A DNA stretch of 64,000 nt, from the NCBI RefSeq assembly GCF_002105155.1, contig NW_019028992.1, positions 764,914 through 828,913 on the forward strand, read 5' to 3'. The notes beneath the pieces were generated by a model, which made no database searches, was not told the origin of the DNA, and saw only the letters and a list, made by a program, of their open reading frames with translations. The position numbers and the translations under genes are program-made. Of the stretch, positions 6,300 through 30,019 are shown piece by piece (position 1 is the first letter of the stretch; every line of letters starts with the position of its first letter). The DNA is from Lobosporangium transversale. Lineage: Eukaryota > Mortierellomycota > Mortierellomycetes > Mortierellales > Mortierellaceae.

Positions 6300-7140
6300 T
6301 GTTAATACGCTTCAGAATTCTAGATTACTCATGGCATAGGTTACCAGATTCTTTATATCCCGGATCAGTGAGCGACCACACCAGGCCCTTGATTTCTTGC
6401 TTCCAAAGGCCTGCATCGGCACGTCCAATGACGTTCTCTATTATTGTGATCATTGGACGGAGACGACCACAGGACCAAGCATATAGCATCTCGATTGCCT
6501 GGTCATTAAAATGCCCTCTCAGCTTTGATGCAGAAGCTTGAGAAACTTTGTTTCTCCAAATATCGTACAAGTGTTTTGAAGTATGTCCGGACTTTTGCTT
6601 AATTATCCCATCTAGGAAACGATACTGCACTCTTGAACCTCGGGTCATCGAGAACTTCCCGATATTCCTTGAAGCTTTACCAGTTCTCTTAACCCAAGCA
6701 GGATCATAAATACAAAAGCCTATCCCGCAAGGAACTATGCAAATTCGTGGTAAATCCTCTGATAAGCCCTCCAATCCATGAAAGAATGCTGATAATATTG
6801 GTCGCTTAGTGTCGTCGTTATTAATAAACTGGTATTTAGCCTCCCCTCCCCATATCCTGCGCCTCGTTCAAAACAACCAAAAACCTAGAGTTGCTTTGAT
6901 GCCGCTCCGAAAGGACCCTGATTAGATTGTCGAACCAATATTGCAGGAGCTTGTCAAGACAATTAAAGCCAACTCCACCAAGTAATTCTGCTACTTTTTT
7001 GAAGAGCGCTAGGAATAAATCTGTCCTGGATGGAACCGAGTTTCCTCAATGGACTTCTCCAAGGACCTGTGGACACACTTGCAATAGCATCCATTGGTTA
7101 GGCGTCATTCTACCTTCGGACAAGTAAAAAGGGTAAATTG
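6300..7140 (-). pseudogene. Decayed CRN/Crinkler-type P-loop ATPase gene fragment (different subfamily from copies A and B)
   Basis: Reading the minus strand from 7140 gives MTPNQWMLLQVCPQVLGEV, an in-frame stop, then LFKKVAELLGGVGF. Next comes RFLVVLNEAQDMG, a Walker B-like strand, and after a one-base frame change in a G-rich run near 6845, KRPILSAFFHGLEGL and ICIVPCGIGF. The fragment ends with CGRLRPMITIIENVI around 6430-6490. This order (Walker B, PCG-x-G-x strand, RGR-x-RP-like helix) is the pattern I know from fungal CRN effector ATPases. The Walker A is not visible upstream. At least one stop and one frameshift make it a pseudogene. It is unlike the ATPase of copies A and B, so two CRN subfamilies have occupied this region. 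Confidence 0.6.
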
Positions 7141-19139: not shown

Positions 19140-20170
19140 CATAGCATGGACATTGACTTTCCCGATAGTCCATTTCAGACGGACAAGCACTTGGATGCAT
19201 TCCACATCTTTCGCTCTATCGGTTGAGCTCCTGCCCAATGGCGTCCCTCTCACGCTTCAGGAGGGAAATACAAGTATCGAGAGCGATATTCATTTAAGAT
19301 TCGTTCCCGAAAGTTCGAGCACGTCTCTCCGAAGATCATGAAGTAATACGAACAGAAAGAGCATAGAGATAGTCCCAATGCGAATGCTCCTGACTCTAGC
19401 AAGCGGAAGAAAAAGGAGGGGAAGGGAAACCCGGCAGAGCCACGAAAAGCGATGGACGAAGTGGATAAAAAAAGACTTGGTCGGGGCTATGCAGTATGAA
19501 CATCCAACTAGGACTCTTGACATCGGGACGGTCAACGGCAACCTGAGTAAGACATTGACTGATAATCCCCAATTTAGGCCCAGGATTAAGATCTGCCTGC
19601 AAGAAATCGTTCGCCATGCTTCGAAGGCCAAGTGCACTTGCCAGAGAGTTACTGGCCACATTGAACAGCTTCCAGCTACCGGTGTCATTGGCACAGACAG
19701 AAAGCTGCTCGATCTTATCTGCCCACGTACATATGTTTAGCAAGAGTGTGGCCGGCGATGAAGGTTCTAATGGAACCGAGAAGAGAGATGGCGCATAGAA
19801 TGGTGAGGACGAAACGAAGGATGCCAGTACGCACCTCCTATTTCCGCTCCTCGTGTGTACCTGCAACAAGAGGCCCCCAACTGGCAAAGTAAAGGATCCC
19901 CATGTGTTCAACTTCATCCATGAGGTCAAGGACTTTTTGCCAGCTATGGCCGATGTTGGTTCGACCAATATAGGGATGTGCTACCCAGGGCTCTCCCGCC
20001 CCGCTGAGAAACTCTAGTAGTTCGACTTTGTTGATTGAGATGAAAAAAAGTCAATCCGTTACTTCGTCACAAACATGGATGTCATCCGTGCATATAATCT
20101 TGCGCAGTTTGACAGCATTTGCTAAATTCCGTCCAATTTCGACAATGTTAATACCGTGCATGAGTCTCTA
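19140..20170 (+). pseudogene. Decayed middle portion of a FEN1/TnpB-like fusion protein
   Basis: Plus-strand fragments in several frames: KIRSRKFEHVSPKIMK, KRKKKEGKGNPAEPRKAMDE, then LVGAMQYEHPTRTLDIGTV, RVTGHIEQLPATGVIGTDRK, LLDLICPRTYV (ending at 19740) and PPTGKVKDPHVFNFIHEVKD. The block EHP-x-x-(S/T)L-x-(I/V)GT corresponds to HPIKALTIGSL in the longer copy at 22456-24942, and the Lys-rich stretch before it also corresponds. The order is colinear with that protein's middle. I recall similar large proteins from Mortierella genomes, but this was not searched. There are no FEN1 or zinc-ribbon ends, and stops are numerous. It lies about 2.3 kb upstream of the longer copy in the same orientation. 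Confidence 0.5.
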
Positions 20171-21371: not shown

Positions 21372-22455
21372 AAGGGAAGGGAAGGGGAAGATAGAGAAAA
21401 AGAAACAGAAAAGAAAGAAAAGAAAAAGGGTGATCTCTAAAGACAAAGGACTTTCAACACCATTGCACCGGTCATAGGGATAGAGAGCTATTAAGCGAGT
21501 TTAAAGAACATGCAATGTAAAGCGAATGATAAAGTGATGGATTTCTGTTGATGGACGCTGTCATTGATCCGACAGACTTCGTGTCATACTCTCCAATTCC
21601 CCGAAAGAGGAATAAAAATTAAAAATAAAAAATCGATTTATCAAAGGTCTCCAGTGGAAAAACACGCCGATTAGCACAAAGTACGCGCTTGTTTGCCAAG
21701 TACTCATCATTATTCAGCACCACCATTCATGTGCTTTGCACATCTTTCACCAGAGGTGAGATCACCAAGAGATGGAAAAAACACGATATCAAAAAACGCG
21801 TAATATCTTTTGATGATATCACTTTTTTTTTTTTTTTTTTTTTTTTTTTCCTTTTTACTTTGATTAATACTTGGGAAATATTAAATCCATTCATTTCTGT
21901 CAAAATTTAAATCTTCTTTATTCATTAAATTCCTCACAAAGCACAAAGCGAGGGCCTGAGAAAAAAAAAAAAAAAAAAAAAAAAAAGTGTAACAAGGGAT
22001 CGACATCGAGATGATTTTTTCGAATGCTCACTTTGGTATCTCAGTGCTATTGTTTCCAATCTGCCGTTCATGCGAGAGCTTGTATTTATTTGTCGATCTC
22101 TGCTATTGACTTGGACAAAACCCCAAGCCAAACAAAGGAACTGAATAAAGATTGATGTGGCCTGTGAAGCAAAGGATCGATATCAAAACTATATGAGACA
22201 ATGATAAAACTCATCATCAATCCAGGATATAAAAAGGGATCATTGTCTTCCTCCTTCAAAGTCCCATCCCTTTTACCACTGCCACTTGTTCCTGTATCTT
22301 TCCCTCAATATTCTTTATCTATTCACTTTGGATCTTTAAACCATAAAAAGCTCATCCTTTTATACCTTTGTAGCTCTTTTTTTTTTTTCTTTTTCATTTC
22401 TTTTCATCATTACCATTTCTTCTTTTTTTCTTTCTCTTTCGCTTAGATATTGACC
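20290..22455. other. Non-coding, homopolymer-rich interval
   Basis: No gene supported. It contains T-runs or A-runs of about 20-30 bases at 20296-20322, 21089-21115, 21339-21369, 21824-21849 and 21961-21986. The last 250 bases (22210-22449) are T- and C-rich and look like the promoter/leader of the FEN1-like reading frame that starts at 22456. Confidence 0.5.
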
Positions 22456-24447
22456 ATGGGGCTGGAGTCCTTCTTCAAACTGGTTGCGGATCGCGGGGTT
22501 TTACCTTCGGAAACTGACGTGGGCACTTCCTTGGCGGCAAATCCTGACCATTCTGTTCATGTAGATCTCCTCGGTACGTTCTATTACGACATCCTCCGCA
22601 GAGTCGTCCATGCAAAGATGAAAAACGAAACCATCATTGATGTAGGAAGGTCTCTGGCTCTCGTGATAAAGGATCTTTTCATAACGGACAATCTGACTAT
22701 ACATATTGATGGGGAACCTTGTACTGAGGAAGAAAAGGCAAGGACAGAACGGCAAGCCATAAGACAAAAAAATATGGATGCTTTGGAGAACGATATGAGG
22801 ACCTTCGAGAGAAATTCTCGGAGTGGGGTATGGACTCGTCCTCAAGTCATGAGGCGCATCCAGAAGGGTCTTCGAGAAGTCCACACCCTGAGCGTCCAGG
22901 ACAAGGATCAGCTGGCAACAGGCCTTAACTCTGTCTTCGATGTCTGTCTGTGTGCATATGAAGCGGACCCATGCATAGGGTGCCATAATGAGGAGAATGA
23001 TAGGATCGTGATATCCCAAGACTCTGATTTTTTTGCGTACGAACAGTCTGCTTCCTAGTGCGACTCCTTCCGCACCATAGACGGAAGTTTGGGGTTTACG
23101 ATGTAGACAACGTTATCCAAGCACTAAGACTGCCATCACACAAGCATCTGGTGCTATTCTGTGCCATCGCAGGCAATGACTACTCAAGGAACCTCGAGAC
23201 GTTAGGCTCGGTCAATAATCTTCGATTAATTCGAAAGGTTGCGTGGAACGAGATCTACAATAAAATGCTTCGGGACTACCTAAGGGAAGCTAGTAAGGTG
23301 TTGGGAAGGAACGCAGCCTCTGAAGAAGGCCGTTTCAGAGTAGCTCTCCGCATTTTTACTTCCGGCCATCAAACGTCGGCCCAAGCGTTACCATCGAACA
23401 ATGGGTTCGATAACTTCAAGCAGCGTCTACTCAATGGAAAGGATCTTCGCCATAGAATGGCTCAGCAAAGGCGAGCGCAGCGCCGCAGAACGTAAGAAAG
23501 CTCAAGCTATAGTTTTGACCTCGAAACCAAACGTTCCCAATACTAATCGTTAGTCCCTTTCTTGGATAATGTAGAGACACACCGTCATTCTATATAGCGA
23601 AAGGGTCATATAGGAACCAGTTCCGGCCCATCTTTTCTGACAAGGCGAGCATATTGAACGGACGCATAGTTGATATCAGTAACTGCCGTCAGCACCATAG
23701 GCCGGGCCTTAAGCATCCACCACGTCGGAGAAAGGCAAAAAAGAAGCAACAGAAAAAACAAAAGCGGAAGCACAAAGGCAAGAAGCCCCACAGGGCTAAA
23801 AAAGAAGGTGCACCAATTAGGAACTTGAAGGATGCTACGAAGGTTGACCACAGCTACAGCGGTAAGCACCCTATCAAGGCCTTAACAATTGGGTCCCTTA
23901 AGGCCTCCATGGCAAGGAAAGGCGGACTGGACGCAGATGAAAGGGATAGTATTGCAAGCCAGATCCGAGGGGCAGTTGTTGTCCTCAACCGACTACGCCG
24001 CTATGCATACTGGGTGATTGCCTTGGACATTGAGAGGATCATGCGGTTACCAGGGGCAGCAAAGTCGAGGAAAAAGGCGCTGGACGAGGTCTTGGATAGC
24101 AATGATTATTCCTTCCGTCTCGCCACCCTTCTTTTGAGCGGTCAAGGTGGCCCCAATTCAGCTTACGCGAGGGCAAAGAAACAAGGAAAGGCGGTAGAAA
24201 CGCCCCATCATCACCTCGCTTATGAACATTTCAAGGCCACCACTGAACTTTCCCCAATAAAGGATATAGACATCACATTGGGGGACGTCCAAGGCTTTGA
24301 TCCCAAAAAGATCACATTTCCAAGAGCGTCAGACTTACTAATGGGCCAAGTACAGACATCATTAAGGCAGCACTACAGGAACGCAATGGTATAGCTTGTG
24401 TAGGGTATTTTCATGCATATTCTGCAATCAAATGCTCTTTATTCACA

Positions 24448-24482
<35 letters not shown>

Positions 24483-24942
24483 TTTGATGTCGAGAAAACA
24501 AGTGAAGATATGAGTGACATTGAGTTTTTTTTGCGGGAGAACAAAAAAGTGAAAAAATACTCAGACTTTCCTATGTCCCCCTGGTCACCCGGGTATGTGT
24601 ATCTGTCTGAACACGCCCTAGTTGACATCCTCTGGGCTTGCTAATAAACGACTGCCATTTGAAACGCTTAGGTCAAAGCACGAGGACACTTCGCTGTAGG
24701 GGCGCACGAATTTTACACCAGCGCCCGCTGCCCCCGACCCCTCTGCGATAGCTTTTTAGAGACGGTATACCCTCGCTCTAAATATTGCCGGACATGTAAG
24801 GTATTCTTCGACCGTGACGCAGTAGGGGCGGAAAACATCGCAAGAATCGGTCTTGCTCAAATTGAGAGGCAAGAGAGGCCTGCAAAGTACAAGCCCACGG
24901 AAGAGTCGCCTGCTCCGGCTGCAAAGCGCGCACGACGCTAGA
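22456..24942 (+). pseudogene. FEN1/XPG-like nuclease fused to TnpB/Fanzor-type RuvC-III zinc ribbon; frameshifted and internally deleted copy
   Basis: The start CCATGGGG at 22456 gives MGLESFFKLVADRGV, a FEN1/XPG N-terminus. Conserved acidic positions follow: Asp37 (VHVDLLG), Asp85 (IHIDGEP), Glu169/Asp171 (CAYEADPCIG), Asp189/Asp191 (ISQDSDFF). A T7 run (23028-23034) then breaks the frame. The protein resumes as RRKFGVYDVDNV and FCAIAGNDYSRN (helix-three-turn-helix region). Introns 23492-23574 (branch TACTAAT) and 24389-24482 keep phase. A Lys-rich linker and a helical middle follow, with YLSEHALVDILWAC near 24600-24640. After a discontinuity, KARGHFAVGAHEFYTSARCP resumes near 24673. It continues PLCDSFLETVYPRSKYCRTC and FFDRDAVGAENIARIG. 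This is a CxxC..CxxC ribbon plus the D-x-x-A-x-N RuvC-III motif of TnpB/Fanzor. RuvC-I and RuvC-II are missing. Likely inactive. Confidence 0.7.
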
Positions 24943-25419
24943 CACAAGTATTTGGGTGCCGGCAACACCCACAAAAAATTTGTAAGTTCTGTTTATTTTC
25001 GTCTCTTGTATCCTCTCTAATCTTTTGCCCCTGAATTTCTGGACTAACTTTAAAAACCGTACAGATCAACAGATAACTAGCAGATGTTCTACTAGGGGGG
25101 GTTTTTTCTTTGTTTTTTTTTGTTTTTGTTTTTTTTTTTTGCCTGCCCTCTTGAAATCAGATGGCAGCTTGTTTTATGACTTGATATGATTACTATTAAA
25201 AGGTATAAAGGAGTAGGACTATACTATTGTCTGTTATAATAAGAAAAATGAAAGAAATAGGCAATTAAACATTACAGAAAAAAAAAAGAAAAGAAAAGAA
25301 AAGAAAAGAAAAGAAAAGCAAAAAAAACTACGTGCCATTATGGTTGATTAAACTATATACAATGTAATGTTGGAAAAAGAGAAAATGTAGCAACATAAAA
25401 AAGTATCGTAAAAAGGACT
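24943..25419. other. Intergenic with (AAAAG)n repeat
   Basis: A short AAAAG-unit microsatellite lies at about 25279-25317, followed by AT-rich sequence. It forms the 3' flank of the large minus-strand gene that ends at 25420. No gene seen. Confidence 0.5.
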
Positions 25420-25917
25420 TCAAATCACCACAAGAGGCTGAAATTCATATCGAGATTTTGGTACTAACATAAACGCGATGTGTGCATATGCCTCCTCAAT
25501 ATCCTCCTCATCCATCTCATTATTATCGTTGTTGCTGTTGCTGCTGCTAGTGCTGGTACGGTCGTTATCATTGAATGCATTTGGCAGTGGTAGATCCTCA
25601 AGTGCTTCAAGCGCTAGTGGTGAGAGGAATGGAGCACCTGATGTTGTGTTTGTCGTTGCAGTTACAGGCGTCACTGGCCGAAGGGATGATACTGGTGAGG
25701 ATGAGCCCATAGGGCGTCCTGTTTTAGCAGAGGTCCGCTCCTTGTGTCTCATCGTCAGCATCGCCATGATCTGCCTTTTGGTCGATGCTCGTTTCTCTCG
25801 CTCCAATTCAGTAACTGGGTGAAGAGGAGCAGGTGACGGATGGAGTACTACCGATAGCGATGATGAAAGTGCAGCCTCTAGACTCTTAAAAGATCGCTCG
25901 ATGCTCTTTTGTTCACC

Positions 25918-25963
<46 letters not shown>

Positions 25964-28900
25964 ATAGTTGTGGGAGCCACAGTTGATGAAGCAACAGCAG
26001 AGGGCTGAATAAAAGTGGCGCCCATTGCTGTTTCTCCTGGTGTCGTGGATGTAATGATAGCCATCTCGAGGACTTCTGATTGCGACCTCCGATGGAACGC
26101 CATCAGGTCGTGTCCTCGACCATTAGCGAGGCGGAGTGGATCATTGCGACGAGGATGAGAAGATAAGGATCGTGTTCTCTGTGCGGTGGCCCTCCCTTTT
26201 ACTGCCGATGTGGTTAAAGCGGCCTCAGCTAATGTACCAGTTGAAGGAGTCGCTAGCTCATATTGTGTATCCATATTACGTGGATCAGAAGCACGGCTTG
26301 TAGTCTTGGAGCGGAACAATTTCACTTTTCTGTGAACCGAAACTCGTTCCGTTGCAGCGGCAGCAGCGGTAGTGGTAGCATTAGTAGCTGTTGCCGTAGC
26401 AGCCACTGCAGCAGTTGTCAAGGTTTTATCAGTTCTAAGAGTAGACGTCCCAAGGGCCAAAGAAGGCTCGCTAGCGGAGGTTGTAGGGGGGAAGTACTTC
26501 ACGCTATCACTCCTCATACGAACAATGTCTCCTTCCGAGCAAACTGCTTGTTGTAAATCGACAACCCCATCGGGCCCTGGTTCAAGCGATCGCATGGTCG
26601 TGGTCGTGGTCGTGGTTGTAGCTATTGCGGTTACCGTCATGTCATAGCCCGTTCGCATGTTTGGACTAGATATCGTGCCCTTATTTTCTTTTGTAAAGTC
26701 AGTGACAGATTCATTATTGGATCCTACAGCGGAACCAGTCCGAGTACTTCCGCTGAGGCGACTGGAGCAGCGGCGAGCCAACGAGCGGATTGATGAGCCA
26801 GTGACAAGCTTCTTCAGGGTCCGCTTGCGGGTCAATCCAGGGGCTGTGGTCTCCTGTGATGACGGTACTATCGGCGCAGTCATGGCTGGTTGCAATTCAT
26901 TTGTATCGTTTGCTCCATCTTCTTTGCTGCCGACAGTTGCGTTGCTCTCTTCCTGCACGTGCTGTTGTCGTTGTGGCTGCTGCTGCTGTTGTTCCTCCAA
27001 AGCAATTGACGGTGTTGATGTTGCTTGTTTATTACTTCTCCGGATGCTCAGTAGTCGACGACCGGCGGACAAAAGGGAGCAGTCGAGGGTGTGACACTTT
27101 GTGCTTCCAGGCTCTCTGGACGGCGTACTATCATTTCGTCGTCTGTTATTGCTGCTATAGACAGCAGCACTCTTGGATCTCGATAATCCTGATGCATGAG
27201 CCGCTCTGGATTTGAACGAGGACGAGATACGACTCAGAGAGCTTGCCCTTGAGACGGATCCCTGCTCTGGGGGGCAAAGAAGCCCCTCTGCCCTTCCGAC
27301 CCTTTCACGACCTCTTCTTTCCTGCTGCTGCTGTTCCTGCCGCTGTTGGTGCATTTGTTGTTGTAGTTCCTGCCTCCGAGCTTCCTTCCACTTCACTTCC
27401 GCTAAAACATCCTCCTGGTGTTGCTGCTGTTGGTAGTAGCAATGTCTCTCCCATGCAAGCTCATTTGCGGTGCGATCTTTCATTCCAGGGTGATGATGAG
27501 GGGGACATGCTCCAAGCTCATAGGCTGAGGCCGCTGCAGTTATGTTCAAATAAGACTTGTGCTGGGCACTATGTGCTGATGAATGATGATACGCATTTGA
27601 GGGCAGAGGAGGCAGCGGCGGCAGCAAGCTGTGATGAGAATGGTGCACATGATGACGTTGATGAGGACGGTGAAGATTGTGATTACCGTAGTGACGGTAC
27701 AGCGGTTGTTGCTGACGATATTGCTGGGTATGTTGATAGTGCATCTGATGCCATTGACGGCGCAACAGGCGCTCTTGTCTTGCTTGCTCTGTCAGGTCCT
27801 CGTGTCTCGATTGAGGGTCGAGATAAAGATAGCGTGGGACATCCGTGCTTGTGAGAGATACCGAGCGGCGATGGCTATTCTCCACGTGTGAATGACTATC
27901 GGAGGATGAAGATGCCTCGTACCGATGGTATTGTTGATGAAGCACATTTCCATGTGAATGTCGTGAGTACTCCTCGTGGTTGGGACTGTTCCTCAAATAG
28001 GTCTGATCATGGAGGAGATGCTCACCAGTGTGAGTGAGCTGTTGCGGAGGTTGAGTCGGACAATGTCGTGGATCTAGTTTATTTGACGAATTTTGGTTTT
28101 GGCTGTGCTGTTGACGAAGACGACGATGATTGTATTGATGATCGAGATGATGTCGTTGTTGGTGGGAATGAGCATATTCATGAATAGCAGCTGAGTTTGG
28201 GAGCGCTGGTGTCGAAAATGGCGGCAAATGCGATGCTGAGTTCATGTAAAGCTCATTAAATTGTTGTTGACTGCTAGCTCGGTGCTCATGTTGAGGCTCC
28301 CGCTGAGCTCCAGTACTATTTATAATAGTTTGCTGACTATCCTGGGAAGGATAAATCAATTGCTGGTGTGACTGGTACGGGTGCTGATATTCCTCATGCT
28401 CGATGCTTGATGCCTCCAATTGATGAGTACTAATAGCAAGTCCATGCAAAGTGCCATGTTGTTGGTAATGATGATTGTCGGGTAATTCAACTGCGCCACC
28501 CTCCATAGCTTGGCTCTGCTGAGTCAACCAGGCTGTCACGTAGTCATCTTTCGCCTGTCTACTAGGCAAGTGCCCATCACTTAGGCTCCAGGCCACGTTT
28601 TTAGCATGGTAAATAGGATTGGAGGCACAGAGGTGTGTATGATGTGATTCAAGGTTTGGGATAGCTAGAGAGGGTTTCGGACTTTGTTGATAATCAGAGT
28701 TGACAATGTGTGTTGCTTTGAATTGCCTGGGCTCACGATGATCGGTGCTGATGCTGTCGGATATACCTGCATGTTGTGGCGTGTGAAAATGATAATAGCT
28801 GTGCGTAAGAGCATGGGCAAGCGATTGGCGCCCTTCTGTTTTACTATCCATAGGAGTGGGAGTGTTGGTGCGGGAAGATTGGGAATACGGAGGACTTGTG

Positions 28901-29568
28901 GAACGGTCGATACTGTTAGTTTTATAGTCGTCCCAAGCTGGATGCCTGTTTGTCCGGTGATGTCGCCTTGAGGCTCCTCCTCCGCTACGGAGACTGCGAA
29001 CCTTTCTCCGTAGGCGCTCCTTCTTGCTGTATAGGAGGCTGAGCAGGATCATGGTTAATGTCACAGACAGGAGAGTTGCTATAGATGATCTAGAAACTTT
29101 GGAACCTTGGAGTGCCTTCCTCTGTGTAACAGCGACATTCTCTTTCTCATGCATTGTTCTGGATTGAGTTGCATACTGCTTTTGTTGTTGTGGTTGGTGA
29201 TTGAAGCGGTCTGAGCTCGCATCTGCTGCAGCTCTGGAGATTGTTTGTGTTGTTGATACATCAGTTTGTATAGTCGAAAGCTGCGTGTTTGTCTCGTTGG
29301 GATTGGGCAAAGTGGACACAAGCGTCGTGCTCGCGCTTTCGTGGCGGTCACCTGGCTTCTCTATACAAGAGCCTGCTTGTGGGTCCAGAACCCGAAGCGA
29401 CGATGTCTCTGTCTGATTCGTCTGAGCGGCTTTTAAAGATGCTGCTTGTAGGGACGATGCTGTAGAAGCAGGTATAGAGGAGCTTTCCGATGATGGCTGA
29501 ATTATGAAAGAAGTTGACGTTGAAGTTGAAGTTGAAGTAGTCAGAACATTCCTGTTGAGAGCTTTCAT
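25420..29568 (-). CDS. Large low-complexity single-pass membrane protein, 1382 aa, His/Gln/Ser/Thr-rich
   Basis: A single uninterrupted frame from a true ATG (29568). Residues 1-160 are Ser/Thr-rich. Residues about 162-180 (SIATLLSVTLTMILLSLLY) form one hydrophobic helix followed by KKERLRRKVRSLR. By the positive-inside rule this suggests a Ser/Thr-rich outer N-terminus and a ~1200-residue cytoplasmic tail. The tail is disordered: His/Gln-rich tracts (about 400-760), Arg/Ser-rich basic segments and polythreonine (a run of 17, from a GTA/GTG-type repeat at 25919-25962). An acidic, Asn/Ser-rich end (NDNNEMDEEDIEEAY) precedes MLVPKSRYEFQPLVVI. Length without introns in such biased sequence argues for real coding. 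No family recognised. A cell-wall or membrane signalling scaffold is speculation. Confidence 0.72.
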
Positions 29569-30019
29569 CTGTTAGTAAACAAAACAAATAAAGAGTTGGT
29601 GTTGTGTGTTGTTATTGTTGTTGTTGGTGTTGCGATCAAGTTTTTTTTTTTGTGGGGTGTTTTTTGGAATGATGCGATGCAAGTATGCAAGTATTATGTT
29701 AGCATTCAGAAAGCATAGCCAGGATGCAGCAATCCAGAATCGACCATAGCGTGTGCATCATTGGATGAAGGTCATACAGAGAAAAACAAACAAGCGAATG
29801 CAGTGACATTGTGGCGCGATCGATCAGTCGATAGTGTAATTCAGTGGTGGCAAAATAAAAAACAAAAAAAAAAGGGGGGGGAGGAGGGAAGGGCAGAGAA
29901 GGTTAGTTTGCTGTTTTGAGAAACATCAAATTAGAGCAATTTGACACGTTGTTGAATCATTACAACTGTTCAATGAAAGATGGTCAGATCGAGGGCGACT
30001 ATGCAGATACAACAGGTGA

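Follow-up and report, generated by a model that had tools for sequence, protein, structure and literature searches.

Does a transposable element of an early-diverging fungus encode a flap nuclease and an RNA-guided nuclease in a single protein? This question is raised by a 64,000-nucleotide stretch of Lobosporangium transversale DNA (hereafter the window; contig NW_019028992.1, our C34, of a 42.7 Mb genome), in which four exons of a damaged gene lie on the + strand at 22456-24941. Fanzor proteins are relatives of CRISPR enzymes and are RNA-guided in other fungi. The initial annotation, made from the letters of the window, had noticed a FEN1-like start and the zinc ribbon of a TnpB/Fanzor protein on one strand, and had proposed that the parental gene joined both nucleases in one polypeptide, possibly of a mobile element. 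The two ends are indeed there: exon 1 opens MGLESFFKLV at 22456, and FAVGAHEFYTSARCP, CRTC and FFDRDAVGAENIARIG all fall within 24672-24941 on the same strand.

According to our analysis of sequences and a structure model, the predicted gene layout is an N-terminal 5' nuclease connected by a disordered basic linker to a complete C-terminal Fanzor1, and it is almost certain that the architecture places both nuclease halves in one polypeptide. Both active sites are preserved in the complete copies of this polypeptide, and the copies are many and dispersed. Our preferred reading, which we hold to be fairly probable, is that the window contains a decayed copy of a transposable element whose sole recognisable gene would encode a bifunctional nuclease steering repair after a guided cut.

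Two nuclease halves and the polypeptide that joins them

The reading frame of exon 1 stops a few codons past its donor site, as might be expected if gene callers had merged two adjacent genes of the element. Such a merger is hardly credible, because in copy L051 (of family B, described below) the four exons can be read without a stop between the FEN1 start and the end of the RD motif, the frame being held across three GT-AG introns; because the middle is conserved, with residues 40-693 of the family C protein aligning to 29-682 of protein P0006 in one stretch; and because three annotated proteins span both halves. Only the last ~30 codons of L051, which follow the ribbon and reach the limit of the fetched sequence, are in another frame than in other copies. 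The full-length two-half proteins of Podila and Mortierella, together with L051, thus bear out the single parental polypeptide. Furthermore, the identities of the two halves covary over nine lineages (Mantel rho 0.62, p 0.012), as expected of an old fusion.

Protein searches, each scoring about 8000 candidates, yielded 12 homologues, from Lobosporangium, Benniella, Mortierella and Podila only; among the candidates scored the family therefore seems to be one of Mortierellomycotina, and its spread may be wider. All 14 diagnostic residues are kept in P0006 (Podila verticillata), P0009 and P0011 (M. alpina), and the other 9 of the 12 are truncated, partial or damaged models. The initial annotation had named intact homologues without the ribbon as evidence against a fusion; P0002 and P0010 do lack the ribbon, but P0010 is marked partial and the P0002 model stops where exon 3 of its relatives ends. 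P0006, P0010 (Mortierella antarctica) and P0012 (Podila horticola) are 79-81% identical, and the other lineages are ~34-35% identical to P0006.

The N-terminal half, ~340 residues followed by the basic linker, is predicted to be a 5' nuclease of the FEN1/EXO1 superfamily. Seven FEN1-type acidic metal-ligand positions, which we take to be D34, D86, E158, E160, D179, D181 and D233 of human FEN1, are invariant in six of six families that share only 24-49% pairwise identity, with Asp at the E160 position. A basic pair, K at +7 and R at +14 after the D86 position, occurs in 10 of 10 sequences tried, and its spacing is also visible in the alignment with 1a76; presumably this pair is the FEN1 gateway K93/R100. 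When the profile of the FEN1 half was compared with PDB, 31 of 33 matches were FEN1, RAD2, XPG or EXO1 (best E 3.5e-9), and the fold of this superfamily was found. The single-sequence Pfam scores shown for XPG_I and XPG_I_2 all lie below the curated cut-offs, including the 11.6 bits of the FEN1 half in the window copy for XPG_I_2 (cut-off 24.2), and five of the six members of alignment A4 have an XPG_I entry (best E 3.8e-5). The profile check suggested at the outset therefore came out in part, since the ribbon passes its cut-off and the FEN1 half alone does not.

The C-terminal half is predicted to be a complete Fanzor1, which is more than the ribbon and makes the earlier assignment to the TnpB/Fanzor type more precise. 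The window ribbon scores 27.9 bits against PF07282 (cut-off 26.3, E 2.7e-6), and profile A3, built on this half, matches the TnpB-like L79 (9b0l, E 1.4e-5) and SpuFz1 (E 1.1e-3). The Bao-Jurka Fanzor motif, given in PMC3627910 as D-X(125,275)-[TS][TS]xx-C4-X-RD, fits five of five proteins (L051, P0006, P0009, P0011 and P0003) with gaps of 175-223, the first position being Asp in four and Glu in P0003. The triad D383-E541-D606 reported for SpuFz1 (PMC11423790) has its counterparts in the catalytic D, in the E of the loop that precedes the ribbon and in the D of the RD motif, and it is complete in all four full-length proteins (L051, P0006, P0009, P0011). The structure model matches PpFz1 over 471 residues, with an N-terminal REC/WED part before RuvC and the overall Fanzor1 fold. 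An unrelated CxxC domain, named in the initial annotation among the findings that would undo it, is ruled out by the Pfam ribbon score, the A3 matches, the triad and the fold match. We infer RNA guidance because of the membership in Fanzor1, and we hold it likely that the FEN1 and Fanzor active sites are both catalytically active.

Comparison of 15 family A copies gave non-synonymous to synonymous variant ratios per site of 0.68, 0.60, 0.34 and 0.58 for exons 1 to 4, and of 0.53, 0.48, 0.21 and 0.13 when the variants shared by copies were counted. These ratios indicate that both halves are under constraint, the Fanzor half more clearly so.

The damaged copy in the window

The window copy is broken, because exon 1 is one base short with a frame change and an internal stretch is deleted. 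Its parts, and a second relic, are as follows.

21900..25075, + strand: family A element copy, 5'-truncated and internally deleted (blastn to L009, 17 other fetched copies compared; flank divergence)
22456..23491, + strand: exon 1, FEN1/EXO1-like nuclease domain, frame broken (P0006 tblastn 22549-23450)
23492..23574, + strand: intron 1, GT..AG, 83 nt (GT..AG in 14 of 15 aligned copies; the exception, L013, carries a deletion)
23575..24388, + strand: exon 2, lysine/arginine-rich linker and beginning of the Fanzor N-terminal region (P0006 346-614)
24389..24482, + strand: intron 2, GT..AG, 94 nt (GT..AG in 15 of 15 aligned copies)
24483..24636, + strand: exon 3, cut to its first 154 nt by loss of the other ~970 nt (RuvC-I, RuvC-II) (copy alignment, P0006)
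24637..24671, + strand: deletion junction and last 35 nt of intron 3, remnant CT..AG (copy alignment)
24672..24941, + strand: exon 4, catalytic Glu (HEFYTS), C4 zinc ribbon (TNB), RD motif and stop (PF07282 E 2.7e-6; P0006 1179-1258 at 24672-24902)
24942..25075, + strand: 3' untranslated stretch and right end, with intron-like GTAAGT...ACAG (at least 40 copies in the genome)
19149..19990, + strand: relic of the distant FEN1-Fanzor family C, middle part only (tblastn with family C protein)

P0006 runs through the window copy collinearly, its residues 28-201, 207-335, 346-614, 627-669 and 1179-1258 matching 22549-23040, 23055-23450, 23573-24388, 24510-24638 and 24672-24902 (best E 2.3e-28). Residues 670-1178 have no counterpart, which coincides with a deletion of ~1 kb relative to sister copies at ~24637; ~1,027 bases of L009, from exon 3 into intron 3, find no match in the window copy, and ~1.6 kb of the L009-type 5' region is missing as well. 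In fuller copies the region lost from the window copy, to which we assign the motif names RuvC-I and RuvC-II, is located between the FEN1 and ribbon ends, where the initial annotation had suggested looking for it. Exon 1 measures 1036 nt here and 1037 nt in most copies, the frame change lying between about 23040 and 23058, and exon 4 contains HEFYTSARCP, four cysteines and FFDRDAVG. Position 24942 ends the coding part only, the right end of the element being at ~25075 (GATA, after which the flanks diverge). Chance resemblance was considered for this locus and is ruled out by the collinear alignment of the Podila protein.

Three further observations concern the surroundings. The family C relic precedes the family A exons by ~2.5 kb, with tblastn identities of 64-68% over residues 409-601 (19408-19990) and 40% over 354-435 (from 19149). 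An intron-like GTAAGT...AG occurs just before the right end in both main families (window 24982-25064; L027 ~6481-6560), the splicing of which could bring the 3' untranslated part beside flanking sequence. On the - strand at 25420-29571, an open frame of 1383 amino acids from stop to stop is rich in Gln/His/Thr/Ser repeats.

Copies, ends and movement of the element

The mobile-element proposal holds, since the element exists in many dispersed copies. The FEN1 half matches 92 places in the genome and the ribbon 137, and exon 3 queries gave 146 match segments (family B) and 144 (family A), each query seeing both families. Family A, to which the window copy belongs, measures ~5.8 kb in L009, including a 2 kb 5' region without long open reading frames, and its three introns are GT-AG in 14, 15 and 13 of 15 aligned copies. 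Family B has 34% identity with family A in the FEN1 half. Families C and D are more distant with the parts in the same order; the family C members with a FEN1 part are L043, L045 and L047, family D is L044, and for L046 and L048 (family C) and L049 inspection by eye of the 4.1-4.2 kb read revealed no clear FEN1 part.

Conserved element ends were found. The right end of family A is ...CAACAGATA, after which the flanks diverge in at least 15 copies, and the last 136 bases before and at it match at least 40 genome places. Family B carries an imperfect inverted repeat, TATAGYCCGTYCCATT, with 41 exact sites and 0 for the reversed control; eight opposed pairs lie 5.6-6.7 kb apart, and other pairs are shorter or longer. 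TATA stands at both ends of family B, and its right end read inwards starts GTCC.

It seems that movement is probably done in trans by a transposase of the Tc1/mariner type. Alternatively, the fusion protein could itself be the mobility enzyme, one nuclease opening the donor or target and the other resolving the intermediate, with no other transposase. This would suit the observations that no transposase-like open reading frame was recognised by eye among the six-frame reading frames in the 5' region of one family B copy (L027) and one family A copy (L010), and that many of the 41 exact repeat sites are ends of family B copies (the check for a transposase covered part of these sites). We nevertheless consider it quite unlikely, as the terminal inverted repeats with TATA at both ends and the truncated derivatives resemble trans-mobilised Tc1/mariner-type elements, at least 154 DDE_3 matches are present in the genome, and only TATC is shared by the family A ends, even though the proteins are homologous. 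In addition, L. transversale is reported to contain Sailor, a relative of Tc1/mariner elements that has TATA duplications (PMC8533490). An empty site, which would show whether the TATA of family B is a duplicated target, was sought where a short family B element seemed to lie in a duplicated stretch; none was found, C40 not being collinear with C67 there. Scans of viral contigs found no relative, and a viral origin is still possible.

The pairing of the two halves was counted with the family A query on the 97 best of the 137 ribbon matches (the 40 weakest dropped). A FEN1 match lies 0.5-6.5 kb upstream on the same strand for 55 of the 97 and is missing for 42, and three have one on the opposite strand within 6.5 kb; 70 of the 92 FEN1 matches have a ribbon downstream. 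L045 and L047 were counted as FEN1-less yet possess FEN1 parts that this query missed. Deletion derivatives that retain the right end have spread although they do not themselves encode the fusion protein. Such spread agrees with action in trans and with the ghost loci described in Spizellomyces (PMC10432273), and it means that the FEN1 part is dispensable in cis.

In two such derivatives, L056 (C117) and L057 (C33), an inverted stretch resembling the family A 5' region precedes the family B 3' part, and truncated matches like these recur at several other genome places. In L027, part of family A exon 3 lies in antisense orientation within the family B 5' region (1539-2167, 86% DNA identity over 553 bases), and antisense family A exon 3 matches also adjoin other family B copies; such a piece may have been captured, or it may give rise to antisense RNA directed at the rival family. 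L027 also contains a 74-bp inverted repeat (86%) at 1156-1229 and 6434-6506, joining its 5' region and 3' untranslated region.

Several results weigh against our preferred reading. The frame is damaged in 15 of 15 assembled family A copies (a set that excludes L018, L020, L021 and L023) and in 6 of 7 assembled family B copies, with at least one break in a homopolymer run. No FEN1 match precedes 17 of 32 family-B-like ribbons; the three of these that were fetched, L056, L057 and L058, are deletion derivatives, the first two having also lost exon 2 and the beginning of exon 3. L058, which bears on the ribbon in a separate gene that the initial annotation had named as contrary evidence, lacks most of exon 1 and keeps most of exons 2-4, with a frame change in exon 3 and Lys replacing the catalytic Glu. 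The Fanzor part can therefore be left behind when the FEN1 part is lost, and fragments spread with no fusion protein encoded in cis. A complete undamaged FEN1-less Fanzor of the same clade was not found, in a thin check covering 3 of the 17 ribbons. In P0003 of M. alpina, Glu replaces the RuvC-I Asp and a stretch of the FEN1 half is missing. A single structure model, the kind of modelling suggested initially, gave fold matches for both halves, with a mean pLDDT (predicted local distance difference test) of 65 and a pTM (predicted template modelling score) of 0.45; with values this low, the mutual arrangement of the two domains is not fixed by the model. The right ends fold no more stably than shuffled sequences (z 0.79, -1.17 and 0.79), and fold stability gave no signal there of the guide-like RNA that the initial annotation had suggested looking for. 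Finally, the exon 1 ratio of 0.68 is only mildly below 1. Such mild constraint in family A would agree with a FEN1-like fold kept mainly for binding branched or flap DNA, as a tether to R-loops or replication forks, with catalysis secondary; the invariance of the seven metal-binding positions over six families of low identity argues against this role, which we regard as improbable.

Proposed action and comparison with known systems

In our preferred reading, that of a repair-steering bifunctional nuclease, the Fanzor half would be loaded with RNA from the element right end and a flanking guide, and would cut the matching site of a copy without the element. The attached 5' nuclease would trim the 5' ends or the displaced strand, through EXO1-like resection or FEN1-like flap removal, and repair would be pushed towards homologous copying from the element-bearing chromosome, by which the element is retained or spread. 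5' overhangs are one class of substrate for EXO1/FEN1-type enzymes. SpuFz1 is reported to leave 5' overhangs (PMC11423790), and a cut-and-copy idea has been discussed for Fanzor and TnpB (PMC10432273). The division of labour between guided cutting and resection or flap removal is a tentative suggestion, somewhat short of an even chance; a naturally occurring RNA-guided nuclease that carries its own 5' end-resection or flap nuclease, with which a transposon copies itself back into empty sites, is slightly more doubtful again. The FEN1-like domain might instead act on RNA as an XRN-like 5'-3' nuclease, trimming the 5' side of the transcript and maturing the Fanzor guide RNA, which we think unlikely.

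The benefit of Fanzor to its carrier is an open question, and a 5' nuclease that was added and kept with full active-site conservation points to DNA repair. These findings suggest that guided cutting has been paired in nature with built-in end processing; if true, this would be a natural precedent for a guided nuclease fused to an end-processing enzyme. The initial annotation could not tie the architecture to any described system, and likewise no FEN1/XPG fusion with Fanzor or TnpB is described in the titles and abstract openings of the literature searched (with few preprints and subscription journals); the words XPG and FEN1 are absent from the main texts of the Fanzor papers searched.

Compared with EXO1, FEN1 and XPG-RAD2 nucleases, the N-terminal half differs in its 13-19% identity in structural alignments, in single-protein Pfam scores (those shown) below the cut-offs, and in its place inside a transposon gene, fused to Fanzor. 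The ends may resemble those of Sailor (DD82E), an IS630-Tc1-mariner element as described in PMC8533490, in the TATA at both ends and the GTCC start of the family B right end, whereas visual inspection of the 5' region of one element from each of families A and B revealed no transposase. The Mucor circinelloides elements MCi-2 and MCi-5 are, in the relevant part of PMC3627910, several-kb elements carrying Fanzor1 whose carrier is unclassified; ours are likewise Fanzor1-bearing several-kb elements of an early-diverging fungus with an unclear vehicle, and differ in that no flap-nuclease domain figures in that description of MCi-2 and MCi-5, on which alone the comparison was made. With Fanzor1 itself (SpuFz1, GtFz1, PpFz1 and the families of Bao and Jurka 2013), the protein shares the complete C-terminal half, the motif, the D-E-D triad and the fold match to PpFz1, and it is carried by a transposable element, as Fanzor1 is carried by several kinds of transposon (PMC3627910); it differs in the FEN1/EXO1-type nuclease and basic linker in front. 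The parts are known, the joined architecture was not met in the literature searched, and we would class it as a novel form of Fanzor1.
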